IMG/VR virus record: IMGVR_UViG_3300020596_000027
Coordinates: 1 to 59,759 of that record
From: a virus
Length of the DNA stretch: 59,759 nt
Reading direction: 5' to 3' (one strand)
Position numbers and translations under genes: made by a program. Shown here piece by piece: positions 5,068 to 59,759 of the stretch. How positions within the stretch are numbered: the stretch's first letter is position 1; each line of letters begins with the position of its first letter. Below the pieces are notes generated by a model. That model worked only from the letters and a program-made list of their open reading frames with translations, ran no database searches and was not told the origin of the DNA.

Positions 5068-5718
5068 ATGACCGAGACACTGCCGCTGCCTCGTGGCCGG
5101 GTGAAGGCCCACCACGTCCCCGCCATGATGGTGATCCCCTGTGGCCGGGCCATCGGCAAGAGCACCACCTTCGTCGGTGCTATCCGCAAGAACTGGGAGC
5201 CGATCACCGACTGGAAATCGAACTTGGTTCTACGGGAGTGGGCAGCGATCGGTGCTCAGCTGCTGGCATCCGGCCGTCGCGAGTACCGCATCGGCACCAT
5301 GTACATCGAGTACGCCAACGTCGCTCTGCCTGGCGACCCGGCCCCTATCCCGACGTTCGACCGCAACCCGGCCTCGGGCGTGACGTACTACAACGCCCTC
5401 ATCACCAACCCCGCCAACGACTACCTGCGGGTGCCGATCATCGCGGCCCCGGTCGACACGTCCGACCCGGTGTTGTACCCGAAGGGCAACCTGGTCACCT
5501 TCTTTGCCCAGACGCAAGGCACCGTCGGCGTCCACAGCAAGCCGTTCGGCGACGTGTACAACTCGACGGTCATCGGTGCGGCCCTGGTTGCGACCCCGAA
5601 CCCGGACGATGCGACCGAGGACCTGGTCCTTAGCCGGTTCTACTTTGACGTACCGGAGCAGAAGCCCAAACTGCCGACCGGGCAGATCGGCCTTGAATGG
5701 GAACTCACACTCCAGTGA
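5068..5718 (+). CDS. putative virion protein
   Basis: A 216-residue protein without membrane segments or signal peptide. Its beta-rich composition and place between two larger structural-type genes suggest a virion component. AAGGAAGGG lies about 8 bases before the ATG, and the gene follows its neighbour by 12 bases, so it belongs to the same operon. I do not recognise the family. Confidence 0.6.
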   Translation: MTETLPLPRGRVKAHHVPAMMVIPCGRAIGKSTTFVGAIRKNWEPITDWKSNLVLREWAAIGAQLLASGRREYRIGTMYIEYANVALPGDPAPIPTFDRNPASGVTYYNALITNPANDYLRVPIIAAPVDTSDPVLYPKGNLVTFFAQTQGTVGVHSKPFGDVYNSTVIGAALVATPNPDDATEDLVLSRFYFDVPEQKPKLPTGQIGLEWELTLQ

Positions 5719-47174: not shown

Positions 47175-48080
47175 ATGGCTTGGTGGGCTCTCAACAACGG
47201 CAAACCAGAAATTGTGCTCATCACACAAGAGGTCGCAACTGAGTGGTCTCAAATGTTGGCGGCAGGAGTCGACCGCGATAAGGATGCCGTTCGGCTCGAA
47301 ACTCACGAGGATAACGTCGCCACCGGAATGTTACGAGCTGTCGAGTGGGCACGTGTTCTCTGTCGCGAGACAGGGTTAATCTACCGGCTCAACGGCAAAC
47401 ACACGTCAACTGCACTGTCGAAGTGCAGTACCAAAGGTCGCAAGCGGGTCTACGCCACCGTCCAAGACTACGAATGCGATACGATGCAGGACGTCGCAGC
47501 CCTCTACGGGACGTTCGACTCAACCGTATCCGTCCGTAAGTTCAACGACATCAACCGCATGTACGCCAGCATCATCCCGGAACTGTGCAGCCTCGACGGC
47601 AAGACGGTCGATCTGCTGGTGTCCGGGTTGTACACGTACGTTTCGACGTACAAATGCGAACCGGAGGGCCTGGAGAACCTTACACTGTGTACTCGTGATG
47701 CCCCAAGACGGGCTCAACTTCTGCAACACTTTGTCCCGTTCTGCTTGTGGTGCGTGGACATCCTGAACAGCACCAAGGCTCGCTTCCTGCGGCGTGCTCC
47801 GGTGGTCGCCGCGATGTTCGGCAGTTACAAGGTAGACGCCAATAGAGCTACGAAGTTCTGGACTGAAGTTCGCGAGGAGAGCGGTGCTCCGGCAACCGTC
47901 ACCACCCGCCAACTGGCGAAGTGGCTGGGTGTCACCGTCATCAAGAGCAAGAACGGCGGGAAGAGCAAGAAGCCTCGTGAGTTCTTGTTCTGTTGCATTT
48001 CCGCTTGGAATGCCTGGCAGAAGGACCGTAACGTGTCCATTCGATACTACCCCGATAACCCGATGCCAAAACCAATCTAG
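47175..48080 (+). CDS. ParB/DGQHR-like domain protein
   Basis: A 301-residue protein with CCGGAGG before the ATG. Residues 68-110 read GLIYRLNGKHTSTAL, then VYATVQDYECDTMQDVAALY and TFDSTVSVRKFNDI. This order (a DGQHR-like NGKH loop, a helix, a strand with Asp, then FD and an Arg-helix) matches phage proteins related to ParB/Srx-fold DGQHR domains. The C-terminal half has helices and Cys pairs of no clear type. Stop TAG overlaps the terminase stop by four bases (CTAG). A DNA-bound or regulatory role is inferred. Confidence 0.55.
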   Translation: MAWWALNNGKPEIVLITQEVATEWSQMLAAGVDRDKDAVRLETHEDNVATGMLRAVEWARVLCRETGLIYRLNGKHTSTALSKCSTKGRKRVYATVQDYECDTMQDVAALYGTFDSTVSVRKFNDINRMYASIIPELCSLDGKTVDLLVSGLYTYVSTYKCEPEGLENLTLCTRDAPRRAQLLQHFVPFCLWCVDILNSTKARFLRRAPVVAAMFGSYKVDANRATKFWTEVREESGAPATVTTRQLAKWLGVTVIKSKNGGKSKKPREFLFCCISAWNAWQKDRNVSIRYYPDNPMPKPI

Positions 48081-51000
48081 CTCCCCGCGTCGTCCCAGTC
48101 CGGCTGGTGCTGCGGGTGGACATGGGACAGGACGTCGAGCGGCAGGATCAGGTGGTTCGCCGCCGCCACGTCGGGCCACTGACCGCTCAACTGGAACAAC
48201 GCACAACACCCGATGTTGACCCCCTGGGCGAAGTCGTCCGAGGCGGTCGGGTTGCGGGTAATGCAGTACACGTCGCCGCCGGATGGCCTCTCCGTCTTCT
48301 CCTCAATGAGTGCCAGGAAGTCACGGATCAGCCCGGCGTCGTCGGAGCTGCGGTAGTCGTCCTTGAAGAACCGCAGCTGGCCGGACTTGATCAACTCACA
48401 CGTGAGCTGGAGCGATCGGCTCTTGTCGACCGTCCACCAGTCACGCGGCAGGTCGTCGGTCGGCGGCTTGTGTACCATGATGTTTTTCTTGGCCGAGGCG
48501 TGGTACGCGATCGGGATGATATTGCCCATCGGGAAGCCCGCCTGACGCACCAAGGTCTCACGGATCGCCCCCGCCCCATTGAAGTCGTGCACGAAGTGAC
48601 TGCACTTGAACCGCTGGATGGCGGCGATGCACAGCTCGGCCTCGTGGACGTGGGCGTGCGTCCGCAGCGACCGGAGGCCCCAGATCACGTCGATCTTCCC
48701 GTCGGGCCGCATGCCCATGACCACCAGGACGGTGTAGCTCGTCCGCTCCCGCTGCTCGCTGCCGGGCTTGGCAGCCGAGTTCCGCAGCTTGCCGCCACCC
48801 CCACCCCAGTCGACCGCCAGGATCTTGTACAGGTACTGGTCCAGGTGCTTCTCGGCCTGCTCGATCTTGTTCTCCCACGGCAGGCAGGCTGCCGCCTGAA
48901 GCTCCGTGACCGTCACCAGCTTCGACCCCACGTCGTAGCTCTCGCCGCACACCTCGTTGAAGAAGACGTTCATGGGCGTGTTGCCCCGCCCCTGCATCTT
49001 GCCGACCAGCATGTCCCACTTCTTGGGGGTGGCGTAGTGCATCGGCATGATGATCTGCGGGATGTGGTAACCGGCGAATGACCACCGCACGTTGGGCTGG
49101 GCGTGAATCCACCGGCCGTTGCGGCGAGGGTCGATCGGCTTGCGACACTTGGCACAGACGATACCGGGGCACTGCTCGGAGATGCCCGAGTGCCATGGCC
49201 CGATCATCTTCACGAGGTCGTGGGACAGGGCGGGGACGTTCCAGTAGTTGCACCCACCGTGGTGGCACTTGATGGCGAACTCGGCCTGGCTGCTGTCGGT
49301 CCACAGCTTCTCGATCGTGTTCTCAAGCGACTTGGGCGTGCCCGCGTACTGCTTGAGGCCGAACGGGGAGCCCGACAAGGTCTCGTGGATGATCGACAAG
49401 AAGTCGTAGTTCATCTCCTGGCAGTTGTGTACCGCGACGCCGCCGGCCAGGAACGTGTTGTGGTTTTTGGTTTCGAGATCGAAAACGCGGTGCTTACCCG
49501 TCCACGTCACCCGGACGAGATCGACTTCTTGGAGGCACGCCACGCCCTCTTGTACGCCAGTCTCTTCTCCCGGTTCTTCGCGTACAGGCGTGCTGCCTTC
49601 TCCCGCTCGTACTTGCGACGGGTATCCAAGTCCGTCGCATAGCCCTCCCGCTGCTTGGCGTTCTTCTCGCCCCGCTTGCCGGGTTTCGCCATCAGCGTTT
49701 CGTTGAGTTCTTTGTGCCGCTCGGCCTTGCACGTTGACGAGCGGCAGCACGGTTTCTGCTCGCCCGTGCCGTACACCCGTTGCCCGTTCGTAGCCGGAAC
49801 GAACGCCTTCGAGCACCAGTGACAGGTCAGGGCCTCGGCCTTCGCAGGCAGGTCCAGTTTGTAAGTCATCTCCGGGAACACGTACGGTCGGATCAGTGCC
49901 GCCAGCGTACGCGTCGAGTCGACCGACAGTCGCACGATCCAGTAGCTCGCAGTCGGGTTGTGCCGCGACGTGATTCTCGCGGCTTTCGCGTCCACCCCGC
50001 GAACCGTCAACCAGTTCGCCAGGAGTTTCACTTCCGCCGACGTGAAACCCTGCGTGTTGAACACGGCCGTCCGCAGTTGGAGCGAGCCGTCGTCCATGTA
50101 CCACCACGCGACCGCTTCCCACGTCATCCTGTCGAGCCACTCCGACGTCACACGCTTCTTGCCGTCCCGGAGACACAAGGAAGCGATATCCTGCAAAGCC
50201 TCCGATTGTCGAGTCTGCCACAGACTCGACCACTCGCCGTAGCCGTAGTTCTTCACTTTCCTGGGAGGCGTGCGTACGAACTCGGATAACACCTGGAACT
50301 TTCGGCAGTTGTAGGCGTGCTGCTTCCAGCCGTGACGACTCGTGAACGCCGAATGCTTGCCGGTGTTCCGCAGATACCCGTCGCCCAACATCGAACCCAG
50401 CATCATCTGCTCTTGTGCTGAGGTCAGTGATGACAGCTTCGACCCGTTTCCATCCGGCGGTGGTGGCGAGCCAAGAATCGCTAGTAGCTTCGACCGCCGA
50501 CCCGCCGGAGAACTCGAACCTGTAGCAGTCGCGGACCCCGTGGTCGGAGCACTTGACGACTTCATCTTTTCGGACATGACCAGCCTCGTCGAACCCCAGG
50601 ACCGCGTCGCCGGGCGAGAACGTCTCGATCGGGCGTGAGCCGGTGTGGGTACTGATCATTGTACCGAGTCTTACGCTCTCGTCAATGACAACTTTGTCGG
50701 CGGGGATACCTCGGGTACGCTCGGCGTCGAGGTACGCGAAGCTGAAGTACATGGTCGAACCGTTGCGGAACGACCGCTGGAGGACGGAGTTGATCGTCTT
50801 GGAGTTCATGAACAGTCGCTTCACGGGCGACGTCTCGATGAACTGCCGGACGTAGTTGTGGCTGAACCGCCGGATCATCTCGTACAGCGGTGTGACGTAC
50901 AGCGTCGAGAAGTACGGGATGGCGTTGCTAAAGATGATGCCCTGGGACGAGAGACTCGTCGACTTCGACACCTGCCGGCCCGTCTTGAGGAGGGTCATGT

Positions 51001-51286
51001 AGGGCATGCGGGTGCGGAAGAAGGGCTCGAACGGGAAGTGATCGTTGAGGTGGTACGGCTTGCCCTTGAGCTGGAGGAGGGCGGGCAAGATGGGCCGCAG
51101 GCTGGCGACGTTACTCTTCTTCAGGTAGTGCTGGGCAATGATCAGTCGCTTGGTCCACTCGTCCTCGAAGCCCGTCAGGCCCATCTCCTTCTTGGAGAGG
51201 GACGCCGTCTGGAGGAACGCCGACTGCTGTTCCTTCTTCTTGATCTTCAGCTGTTCCGCGATCGTCAACTTTTTGGAGGTAGACAT
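48077..51286 (-). CDS. terL: phage terminase large subunit, interrupted by an intein
   Basis: A 1069-codon frame; without the 418-residue intein the terminase is 651 residues. Residues 103-110 (GRQVSKST) are the adapted Walker A of terminase ATPases, and VVIDE ending at residue 203 is the Walker B with its catalytic Glu. The extein resumes as CQEMNYDFLSIIHE, the normal continuation. The C-terminal half has nuclease acids in ILAVDWGGGG, SHFVHDFNGAG and DAGLIRDFLAL, as in RNase H-fold terminase nucleases. It cuts and packages phage DNA into the prohead. Only this gene and the one at 39777 are on this strand. No small subunit or portal was found next to it. Confidence 0.92.
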   Translation of the reverse strand: MSTSKKLTIAEQLKIKKKEQQSAFLQTASLSKKEMGLTGFEDEWTKRLIIAQHYLKKSNVASLRPILPALLQLKGKPYHLNDHFPFEPFFRTRMPYMTLLKTGRQVSKSTSLSSQGIIFSNAIPYFSTLYVTPLYEMIRRFSHNYVRQFIETSPVKRLFMNSKTINSVLQRSFRNGSTMYFSFAYLDAERTRGIPADKVVIDESVRLGTMISTHTGSRPIETFSPGDAVLGFDEAGHVRKDEVVKCSDHGVRDCYRFEFSGGSAVEATSDSWLATTAGWKRVEAVITDLSTRADDAGFDVGRRVSAEHRQAFGVHESSRLEAARLQLPKVPGVIRVRTHASQESEELRLRRVVESVADSTIGGFAGYRFLVSPGRQEACDVGVARQDDVGSGRVVVHGRRLAPTADGRVQHAGFHVGGSETPGELVDGSRGGRESRENHVAAQPDCELLDRATVGRLDAYAGGTDPTVRVPGDDLQTGPACEGRGPDLSLVLEGVRSGYERATGVRHGRAETVLPLVNVQGRAAQRTQRNADGETRQAGREERQAAGGLCDGLGYPSQVRAGEGSTPVREEPGEETGVQEGVACLQEVDLVRVTWTGKHRVFDLETKNHNTFLAGGVAVHNCQEMNYDFLSIIHETLSGSPFGLKQYAGTPKSLENTIEKLWTDSSQAEFAIKCHHGGCNYWNVPALSHDLVKMIGPWHSGISEQCPGIVCAKCRKPIDPRRNGRWIHAQPNVRWSFAGYHIPQIIMPMHYATPKKWDMLVGKMQGRGNTPMNVFFNEVCGESYDVGSKLVTVTELQAAACLPWENKIEQAEKHLDQYLYKILAVDWGGGGGKLRNSAAKPGSEQRERTSYTVLVVMGMRPDGKIDVIWGLRSLRTHAHVHEAELCIAAIQRFKCSHFVHDFNGAGAIRETLVRQAGFPMGNIIPIAYHASAKKNIMVHKPPTDDLPRDWWTVDKSRSLQLTCELIKSGQLRFFKDDYRSSDDAGLIRDFLALIEEKTERPSGGDVYCITRNPTASDDFAQGVNIGCCALFQLSGQWPDVAAANHLILPLDVLSHVHPQHQPDWDDAGS
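49424..50677 (-). other. intein inside terminase, at the Walker B motif
   Basis: The intein runs from Ser (codon 50675-50677, right after the Walker B Glu) to Asn (49424-49426), followed by Cys+1 of the extein. Splicing block A: SVRLGTMISTHTGSRPIE; block B: VEATSDSWLATTAGWKRVEA, where the usual His of T-x-x-H is Ser; blocks F and G: TWTGKHRVFDLETKNHNTF and GGVAVHNC. Between them the terminase frame stays open for about 330 codons but reads as out-of-frame material, because the endonuclease lies in another frame. Length is 418 codons, normal for a LAGLIDADG intein. Splicing is inferred. Confidence 0.88.
49507..50577 (-). CDS. LAGLIDADG homing endonuclease encoded out of frame within the intein
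   Basis: A 356-residue protein in the +1 frame relative to the terminase, with its own ATG (GAGG about 8 bases upstream) and its own TGA just before splicing block F. L60-GSMLGDG-67 and AWWYMDDG (157-164) are the two LAGLIDADG helices, with acids D66 and D162/D163. Residues 252-283 carry a zinc-ribbon-like C-x-x-C ... CC-x4-C, followed by a basic Lys/Arg tail, features more usual in free-standing endonucleases. It should cut intein-free terminase genes to spread the element. A pair of compensating indel errors is the alternative reading. Confidence 0.82.
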   Translation of the reverse strand: MSEKMKSSSAPTTGSATATGSSSPAGRRSKLLAILGSPPPPDGNGSKLSSLTSAQEQMMLGSMLGDGYLRNTGKHSAFTSRHGWKQHAYNCRKFQVLSEFVRTPPRKVKNYGYGEWSSLWQTRQSEALQDIASLCLRDGKKRVTSEWLDRMTWEAVAWWYMDDGSLQLRTAVFNTQGFTSAEVKLLANWLTVRGVDAKAARITSRHNPTASYWIVRLSVDSTRTLAALIRPYVFPEMTYKLDLPAKAEALTCHWCSKAFVPATNGQRVYGTGEQKPCCRSSTCKAERHKELNETLMAKPGKRGEKNAKQREGYATDLDTRRKYEREKAARLYAKNREKRLAYKRAWRASKKSISSG

Positions 51287-53840: not shown

Positions 53841-53876
53841 ACGCGAAGGCCACCCAGATCTGGGTGGCCTTCGCGT
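53841..53876. terminator. 36-bp perfect palindrome, terminator
   Basis: ACGCGAAGGCCACCCAGA and its exact complement run back to back, giving an 18-bp stem with practically no loop (cruciform capable). There is no clear T tract, so it may work in both directions or as a stable 3-prime end. It fills the gap 53814-53892. Confidence 0.7.
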
Positions 53877-56696: not shown

Positions 56697-57203
56697 GTGG
56701 ACGAGACAGAGTTCAACGACGGCAACGGCAACCCGTTCCCATCCAACTGCGACGCGAAGACACGGAAGTGGCTAACACGGCTCGCCAAGACGTTCCTCAA
56801 GTTCGTGACCGTGCCCGAGAACACGGTGCTCGCGTACTCGGCCGCGTTGCGGAAGGACACCGACCCGGCCGACCCGATGAGTGCGTGGGCCATCCAGTTC
56901 TGCGAGGCCGCTGGTGAGCGGGTCGGCGGGCACCGCGACGGGGAGTTGATCTACAAGGGGTTCGAGTTCTGCCTGAGCGGCTTCGTGAGCTGGCTCCAAT
57001 CGAAGAACTACTACGACATCTATGTTTCGGTGGACCTGTCATCCTATCGGGAGGAGGACGATGTCAGGATACCGCATGTCCGCATCTCCGGCTTCAGGAA
57101 GAACGGTCGGCCGTTCGCTATCGTCATCCACACGACCCCGCACCCCGACATTCCACCCCTCTACAAGGTGGGCGAGGGCGACGAACAGGCCGAGGACAAG
57201 TAA
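56697..57203 (+). CDS. unknown protein
   Basis: A 168-residue protein, GTG start. A helical N-terminal half and strands such as YDIYVSVDLSSYREEDDVRI and FAIVIHTTPHPDIP in the second half. The stop overlaps the next ATG (TAATG). Not recognised. Confidence 0.5.
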   Translation: MDETEFNDGNGNPFPSNCDAKTRKWLTRLAKTFLKFVTVPENTVLAYSAALRKDTDPADPMSAWAIQFCEAAGERVGGHRDGELIYKGFEFCLSGFVSWLQSKNYYDIYVSVDLSSYREEDDVRIPHVRISGFRKNGRPFAIVIHTTPHPDIPPLYKVGEGDEQAEDK

Positions 57204-57544
57204 TGCCCCCGCCGAACAGACGCCGCCGCACCCCAGGTCGCGAGAAGGGACCATCTGACGAGGTCATGGCGGGATGGACGCAACAGCAGCGGGACGTCTA
57301 CAGGGTCAACCAACTCTTGCGGACGCCCATCGCAGAACTCAACATCCCTGTGCGGATTGTCAACACGCTGGAGAACCACGGGGTCATCCTCGTGGGCAAC
57401 CTCGTCGAGCAGTCCGTCGAGGCCCTCATGGGGATGACCAACTTCGGCGAGAAGACCCTCGTCGAGATCAATGCGGCCTTGCGAGAACTCGGTCTGAGCC
57501 CGCCCGTCGGGTGGGTCACGGAACCCAAGAAACGGAGGAAGTGA
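57203..57544 (+). CDS. RNA polymerase alpha C-terminal domain-like protein
   Basis: A 113-residue protein. Residues about 36-98 match the alpha-CTD of bacterial RNA polymerase: TPIAELNIPVRIVNTLENHG, then VILVGNLVEQSVEALMGM and the helix-hairpin-helix NFGEKTLVEINAALRELGLS. A basic N-terminus (RRRRTPGREK) and a short basic tail flank it. The rest of RpoA is missing. A stand-alone alpha-CTD could dock on DNA UP-elements or on activators and so alter host transcription. The domain match is strong; the role is inferred. Confidence 0.78.
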   Translation: MPPPNRRRRTPGREKGPSDEVMAGWTQQQRDVYRVNQLLRTPIAELNIPVRIVNTLENHGVILVGNLVEQSVEALMGMTNFGEKTLVEINAALRELGLSPPVGWVTEPKKRRK

Positions 57545-59128: not shown

Positions 59129-59236
59129 TTAGTAGTATTCTACTAACTACACAAACTTTGTGTAGTTGTACCCCCTTTTTTGGGGGGGTCTCGGGACCGG
59201 AAAAAAACTTTGTTTCGTTATTAACTACACAAAGTT
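59129..59236. repeat. AT-rich palindromic block, candidate origin or operator
   Basis: TTAGTAG-TATT-CTACTAA (59129-59146) is followed without gap by AACTACACAAA-C-TTTGTGTAGTT (59145-59167), an 11-bp palindrome. Then come C5-T6-G7 (59171-59188), an A7 stretch and a further direct copy AACTACACAAAG (59223-59234) 11 bases before the next start. The region is far more AT-rich than the rest. Binding sites for a protein made by the next gene, or a replication origin, are likely. Confidence 0.65.
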
Positions 59237-59246
59237 GGAGTTGCTC

Positions 59247-59759
59247 GTGTCCACCGCATCCCCGACCGACATCAAGTGGGAGTTACACTACACGCCCAAG
59301 GCGTACCGGCAGACAGCGTGTCGTCTGTGCCTGATCCGCCGCCTCTACGACGGGATGGACGTCAAGGAGCGGACCGCCGCCAGTGATCGACTCGCGGTCA
59401 GGACTTCCGGATTGTACCGCATGCTTCTGACCAACCTCCGGAACGAGGGCTGGGACAAGCTGGCCGACGACAAGAAGTTCCAGTTCATCCGGAACTGCCC
59501 GCCCGTGGGGGTGCGGACTAAGACCGTTGCCGGGCAGACGTGTCACCAATGGCACGTCTGCCCGTTCTGTTGGGTTCGTCGCAACGTCCTGGAACCATTC
59601 AAGCGGATGGAGGCTGCATTCTTCGCCGACAAGGGGCTGAAGCCCGACCTGCCGCCCGTCAAGTTGATCTCGACGATGCGGCAGGACTTCGTGACGGCCA
59701 AGCCCTACCACGAGGCGATGACGGTCGGCGAGGTGTTTCGGGACAAGCTGCGTCTCGCG
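59247..59759 (+). CDS. N-terminal part of a Cys-rich protein, possible replication initiator
   Basis: The frame starts at GTG 59247 (TTGGAG upstream) and runs off the window after 171 residues. Residues about 100-115 read CHQWHVCPFCWVRRN, a C/H-rich segment that recalls the metal-binding part of plasmid-type Rep proteins, and the first 80 residues are helical with an Arg/Lys-rich surface. The palindromes just upstream are the usual setting of an initiator gene. The call is tentative since the catalytic part is not in view. Confidence 0.4.
   Translation, partial: MSTASPTDIKWELHYTPKAYRQTACRLCLIRRLYDGMDVKERTAASDRLAVRTSGLYRMLLTNLRNEGWDKLADDKKFQFIRNCPPVGVRTKTVAGQTCHQWHVCPFCWVRRNVLEPFKRMEAAFFADKGLKPDLPPVKLISTMRQDFVTAKPYHEAMTVGEVFRDKLRLA

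Follow-up and report, generated by a model that had tools for sequence, protein, structure and literature searches.

The specificities of lambda CI-type immunity repressors and of their sites change together between near-identical phages. A comparable association of a protein with sites beside its own gene is found among replication initiators. RepU of plasmid pUB110, a member of the Rep_1 family (PF01446, which also contains RepA of pC194), coats its origin DNA and also silences the promoter from which it is expressed (PMC5703833). Geminivirus iterons lie in front of the rep gene, correspond to the cognate Rep and have diversified among closely related viruses (PMC12548392). The locus described here bears on how a large phage that encodes its own polymerase begins and restrains its replication programme: it offers a conserved unnamed gene heading a replication module, with likely plasmid Rep ancestry, and a short list of candidate binding sites.

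The window, that is, the whole stretch of DNA analysed (59,759 bases), is an entire virus record, and the gene of interest is cut by the end of the contig. The remainder of the gene was therefore taken from G001 (IMGVR_UViG_3300020186_000013, 208,145 bases), a viral contig from a large phage, with which the window is collinear in reverse orientation (G001 positions 95507–35735) at 99.9% identity. Scans for closely related proteins in viral contigs, bacterial genomes, phages and plasmids yielded only the G001 copy.

The gene family and its relation to Rep_1 initiators

The gene starts with a GTG codon at position 59247 on the plus strand, and its reading frame runs past the end of the contig, such that the window contains the 5' part (59247–59759, 171 of 290 aa). 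Reading beyond the window in G001 (L003:6001–6870) gave the full-length protein of 290 aa. Homologues were identified in about 20 large-phage contigs. The first route to them was a terminase-based capture of related contigs, which provided 25 large-phage contigs besides G001; a homologue was detectable by sequence in nine of the 21 contigs searched and, with a profile search, in 16 of 23 records (window and G001 counted), and further scans added members. Residues C84, C99, C105, P106, C108 and R111 are invariant in every family alignment, and the four cysteines define a site encoded at 59496–59570 (+, codons 84 to 108). No entry in Pfam, PHROG or NCBIfam fits the family, and the profile search detected no homologue in two cultured phages distantly related by terminase, Salmonella phage Arash and Vibrio phage D69. 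The gene is located 5–15 kb from the terminase, in divergent orientation, at the head of a co-directional series encoding an SbcD-like phosphoesterase, an SbcC-like ATPase, two unknown proteins and a helicase, with a family A DNA polymerase further downstream in G001. The SbcD-SbcC-helicase module is headed by the gene in up to nine genomes, which counts in favour of the explanation preferred below.

The initial annotation described the gene as Rep-like, and the part of this description that stands is a remote ancestry. With eight aligned Rep_1 proteins as the comparison set, hhalign of the family profile against Rep_1 gave a score of 33.6 (P = 8.7e-4); none of 300 column shuffles exceeded 22.1, and the reversed profile scored 11.9. 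The link was weaker with alignments A3 and A8 (P = 0.006 and 0.008, respectively). The profile alignment was collinear through the four-Cys motif, the tyrosine region and the C-terminal R..GG. Rep_1 was also the top Pfam match in the family (L057, 16.8 bits, E = 0.0048, Cys part only), but no member reached the gathering cut-off of 33.2, and the window and G001 proteins had no PF01446 match. The two groups of proteins have in common the order Cys...Cys-x4/5-Cys-Pro-x-Cys-x2-Arg, followed by a strand, a helix, two strands, a helix with a Tyr residue after it (in part of the phage family) and a C-terminal R..(G)G, and in both the gene adjoins repeated sites. In the predicted model of the protein (pLDDT 75, pTM 0.79), a strand (residues 138–148), a helix (160–172), two strands (191–202 and 207–218) and a helix (242–252) precede Tyr255, and this predicted order of secondary structure matches the Rep_1 motif order, which also counts for the preferred explanation. 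A single-sequence structure prediction was unusable (pLDDT 33); Foldseek searches gave no significant match in the PDB and two nameless matches below 1e-3 in BFVD.

However, the HUH (HPHxH) metal site and the FLTLT motif, both conserved in the plasmid set A4, are absent from all the aligned phage members. The search for Rep catalytic motifs found no E-x3-Y in the family either: in the G001 protein, the residue four positions before Y255 is an Arg rather than a Glu. A tyrosine at the catalytic position is aligned in part of the family and missing in a subfamily including L091, L096, L098 and others. The families also differ in their genomic context, as the phage gene is carried by large tailed phages with their own polymerase, whereas Rep_1 genes belong to small rolling-circle replicons. 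Given the absence of the HUH histidines and FLTLT, we do not claim membership of Rep_1; the profile comparison weakly links the family to these initiators through remote ancestry, and the protein, though Rep-related, is probably not a nicking enzyme.

Half-sites and palindromes in the leader

Overlapping perfect palindromes, with a repeat used twice in direct and once in inverted orientation, had been reported immediately before a gene with a CHQWHVCPFCWVRR segment, and both observations were confirmed. The 11-mer AACTACACAAA is present at 59145–59155 (+, half-site 1), 59157–59167 (−, half-site 2) and 59223–59233 (+, half-site 4), and absent from the rest of the window. With at most one mismatch, it has three matches in the window versus 0.2 expected, and none of 100 shuffles reached three. 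A degenerate fourth copy, AACGAAACAAA (59209–59219, −, half-site 3), was missed in the initial annotation, and the resulting order, +,−,−,+, corresponds to two inverted pairs. Together, half-sites 1 and 2 make up a perfect 23-bp palindrome, AACTACACAAA-C-TTTGTGTAGTT (arm 11, centre 1), unique in the window for its class (arms of at least 9, loop of at most 6, AT of at least 55%), and complementarity extends over 14 bp between half-sites 2 and 4. The pattern AACKAMMYAAA has four matches in the window and three in the 208-kb G001, and all seven lie inside the leader, an observation that counts for recognition of the leader by its own gene product; the fourth G001 half-site fits the pattern save for its first base. 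Half-site 4 is followed by a Shine-Dalgarno-like GGAG (59237–59240, +), 6 nt 5' of the start codon. A hairpin, TTAGTAG-TATT-CTACTAA, identical in both alleles, is located upstream (59129–59146), and a C5/G5 hairpin, with a stem retained in the G001 allele, lies between the half-site pairs (59171–59186). No consensus sigma-70 promoter was found on the strand of the gene, which counts against the preferred explanation. The remaining inverted repeats of the window are richer in G+C and were not classed with the leader palindrome.

Two other phages also have AT-rich dyads, of different sequence, in front of the gene or of the operon that contains it. In G002, the dyad TACTCTCTATCT-A-AGATAGAGAGTA is located 27–51 bases 5' of the gene start, and the 200 kb of this genome contain just one other AT-rich perfect dyad. 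In G003, the dyad ATTAGGCTAAC-T-GTTAGCCTAAT, the sole AT-rich perfect dyad of its class in 235 kb, abuts the Shine-Dalgarno sequence of a two-gene operon carrying the homologue; two additional half-sites lie just 5' of this dyad. The half-sites of both phages are confined to the leader, except for one stray 8-mer in G003. The dyads of the window and G001, of G002 and of the G003 operon start are thus placed in the manner of operators, immediately upstream of their own gene or operon and confined there. The homologues of G006, G009 and G004 begin within tight operons and have no dyads. Since the dyad thresholds were set after the first case had been seen, and since other members lack dyads, this architecture is attributed to some members of the family only. 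Hairpins preceding the homologues of G013, G015 and G017 were rejected as candidates: they look like ordinary terminators or promoter hairpins, and those of G013 and G017 recur elsewhere.

The block had initially been interpreted as an origin with its initiator. The half-sites would then be iterons loading the helicase and the polymerase, either without HUH nicking or with an altered centre using the tyrosine retained. A Rep_1-related protein is indeed encoded beside repeated sites at the head of a replication module, and no other 150-bp window of the G001 contig is as poor in GC as the leader, which also ranks among the GC-poorest in G002, G003 and G005. Geminivirus Rep-iteron pairs are similar in having short repeats right before the rep gene, conserved in position and diverse in sequence. 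They occur, however, in unrelated viruses and hosts, whereas the phage sites are 11-mers in two inverted pairs, the HUH centre is absent and no nick site was identified. AT-rich intergenic DNA is, moreover, equally expected at any promoter, and the GC skew shows no consistent turn at this position in G001, G002, G003 or G005 (the minimum in G001 is at about 73 kb, versus 36 kb for the gene). The catalytic residues also argue against this interpretation: the histidines are lacking throughout, the tyrosine in the L091, L096 and L098 subfamily, and the preceding Glu in the G001 protein. Because the skew does not turn and the same sites fit an operator, we consider an origin fairly unlikely, even though the AT-rich minimum, the repeated sites and the position at the module head remain in its favour.

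A further suggestion, that an integrated element has its boundary or its attachment site at the palindromes, would be consistent with inverted repeats standing where the record ends. It is contradicted by the collinearity of G001 through the block (99.9% identity upstream and 100% after 59657); the contig simply ends here, and such a boundary is highly improbable.

A hypervariable patch between near-identical genomes

The window and G001 differ by 61 changed columns within a 510-bp patch (59148–59657), as against 45 substitutions and one 15-bp indel over the other 59.1 kb, this indel (at window position 5170) being the only one outside the patch. Divergence is thus about 12% in the patch versus 0.08% elsewhere, and there is a single such patch between the two genomes. 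It spans the leader sites and the 5' half of the gene, and the last 102 bases of the window, past 59657, are 100% identical to G001. Both alleles are open, the frame being preserved by paired small indels, and the amino-acid changes are concentrated at the N-terminus and around the four-Cys site, with all four cysteines kept. The coding part of the patch also contains an inverted repeat with perfect 12-bp arms and a loop of 10 (59531–59564), over the C99..C105 loop.

The leader sites changed in concert with one another and with the gene. Half-sites 1–4 of G001 are AACGAACCAAA, TACGAACTAAA, AACGAACCAAA and AACTACCTAAA, respectively. Position 7 of the half-site changed from A in the window to C in G001 in all four sites, and sites 1 and 2 have identical changes at positions 4 and 6. 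With the number of changes per site fixed, equal mutual similarity was obtained in 5e-6 of 200,000 random trials.

The changes in the arms are compensatory, as would be expected if the block acted as RNA, with the mRNA 5' leader folding into alternative stems and so controlling translation or attenuation, independently of the gene product. Consistent with such a role, the folds of both alleles are better than those of shuffled sequences (z about −3.6), the G002 leader behaves likewise (z = −3.9), and site 4 abuts the Shine-Dalgarno sequence. However, palindromic DNA sites always yield RNA stems, the G003 leader is weak (z = −2.1), no Rfam match was found, and the one-base centre of the dyad formed by sites 1 and 2 is too tight for a full RNA hairpin. 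Furthermore, the perfect partners differ between the alleles, being sites 2 and 4 in the window and sites 1 and 3 in G001, and this switch of the best-paired partners is more in keeping with repeated sites for a protein than with a single conserved RNA stem. A leader acting through its RNA is, in our view, unlikely.

Across the 171 codons, dS was 0.22 and dN 0.06 between the window and G001. These values imply either the import of a divergent allele or a chimeric contig end. Since synonymous divergence is high too, as it would be in an imported allele, the patch does not prove selection on specificity. The end of the window may be chimeric, the assembler having joined two coexisting strains, such that the contig, begun in one strain, would have continued into a coexisting relative's allele without any exchange of a cassette. 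The contig stops 102 bases past the last variant, about where, as we infer, a strain bubble would halt a de Bruijn assembler run with k near 103, and the flanks are identical on both sides. Nevertheless, both alleles are in frame, with the four cysteines and the dyad architecture kept, which argues that both are natural, and even a chimera would leave two real alleles in near-identical flanks. We regard an assembly chimera as possible, if on the improbable side; it concerns only the origin of the patch and is compatible with the preferred explanation.

The control comparison of two related phages without dyads, L092 and L093, gave a different picture: the gene differs by 0.2–1.2% and the flanks by 7–12%. 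The gene is more conserved here than its surroundings, so fast change is not a trait of the whole family. A near-identical gene in diverged flanks reflects, in this pair, strong constraint or a recent transfer of the gene.

A protein that may recognise its own leader

The explanation we prefer, at about even confidence and from sequence comparisons, is that a Rep-derived DNA-binding protein recognises its own leader and regulates its own expression, possibly with an additional origin function. The gene product would be descended from an initiator of the Rep_1 type (pC194/pUB110-like) that lost its HUH nuclease centre, and it would most likely bind the four half-sites, as two inverted pairs, in the form of dimers or pairs. 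As site 4 ends a few bases 5' of the ribosome-binding site, its occupancy would repress transcription of the gene and, by extension, the head of the phage recombination and replication module, which would constitute a self-limiting switch. Recognition of inverted half-sites in the leader of its own gene would explain their placement, their near-uniqueness, their diversity between phages and the concerted change. The action of RepU on its own promoter sets a precedent for such self-silencing within Rep_1, and the geminivirus Rep-iteron pairs set one for sites that diversify rapidly. We infer binding, autoregulation and dimerisation, as well as an advantage of a change in specificity. The protein and its sites would then form a matched and diversifying specificity pair, exchangeable between phages as one cassette consisting of the leader and the first half of the gene.

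Such a system would resemble lambda CI-type repressors in that a regulator gene has candidate dyad operators in its own leader. It differs from them in that the phage family heads a replication module, has a single operator region and yields no repressor-family match. More tentatively, and with a probability that we would place well below even, a nuclease-dead relative of plasmid rolling-circle initiators may serve as the specificity factor opening the replication module in this clade of large phages, with near-identical phages swapping protein and sites as one cassette, on which compatibility or cross-repression would depend in co-infection. The two natural alleles, each with its protein and its sites on the same backbone, make specificity directly testable by swaps.

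Several other features of the two genomes were observed. The terminase ORF of the window (48077–51286, −, 1069 aa) probably contains an intein of about 400 residues (about 49418–50644), as the genes of relatives, of about 600 aa, match around the insert, and a C-terminal splicing model matches residues 601–622 just over the cut-off. The strongest inverted repeat of the window is a perfect 36-base palindrome, ACGCGAAGGCCACCCAGATCTGGGTGGCCTTCGCGT, at 53841–53876. A small ORF (57203–57541, +) matches the C-terminal domain of the alpha subunit of bacterial RNA polymerase (PF03118, E = 1.6e-14), and G001 encodes an RNA polymerase beta-like protein (142659–145772). G001 also encodes a 1157-aa protein with uracil-DNA glycosylase and DNA polymerase A domains (L013:14082–17552), and a thymidylate synthase ThyX ORF with a LAGLIDADG-like insert (L013:2155–4269).
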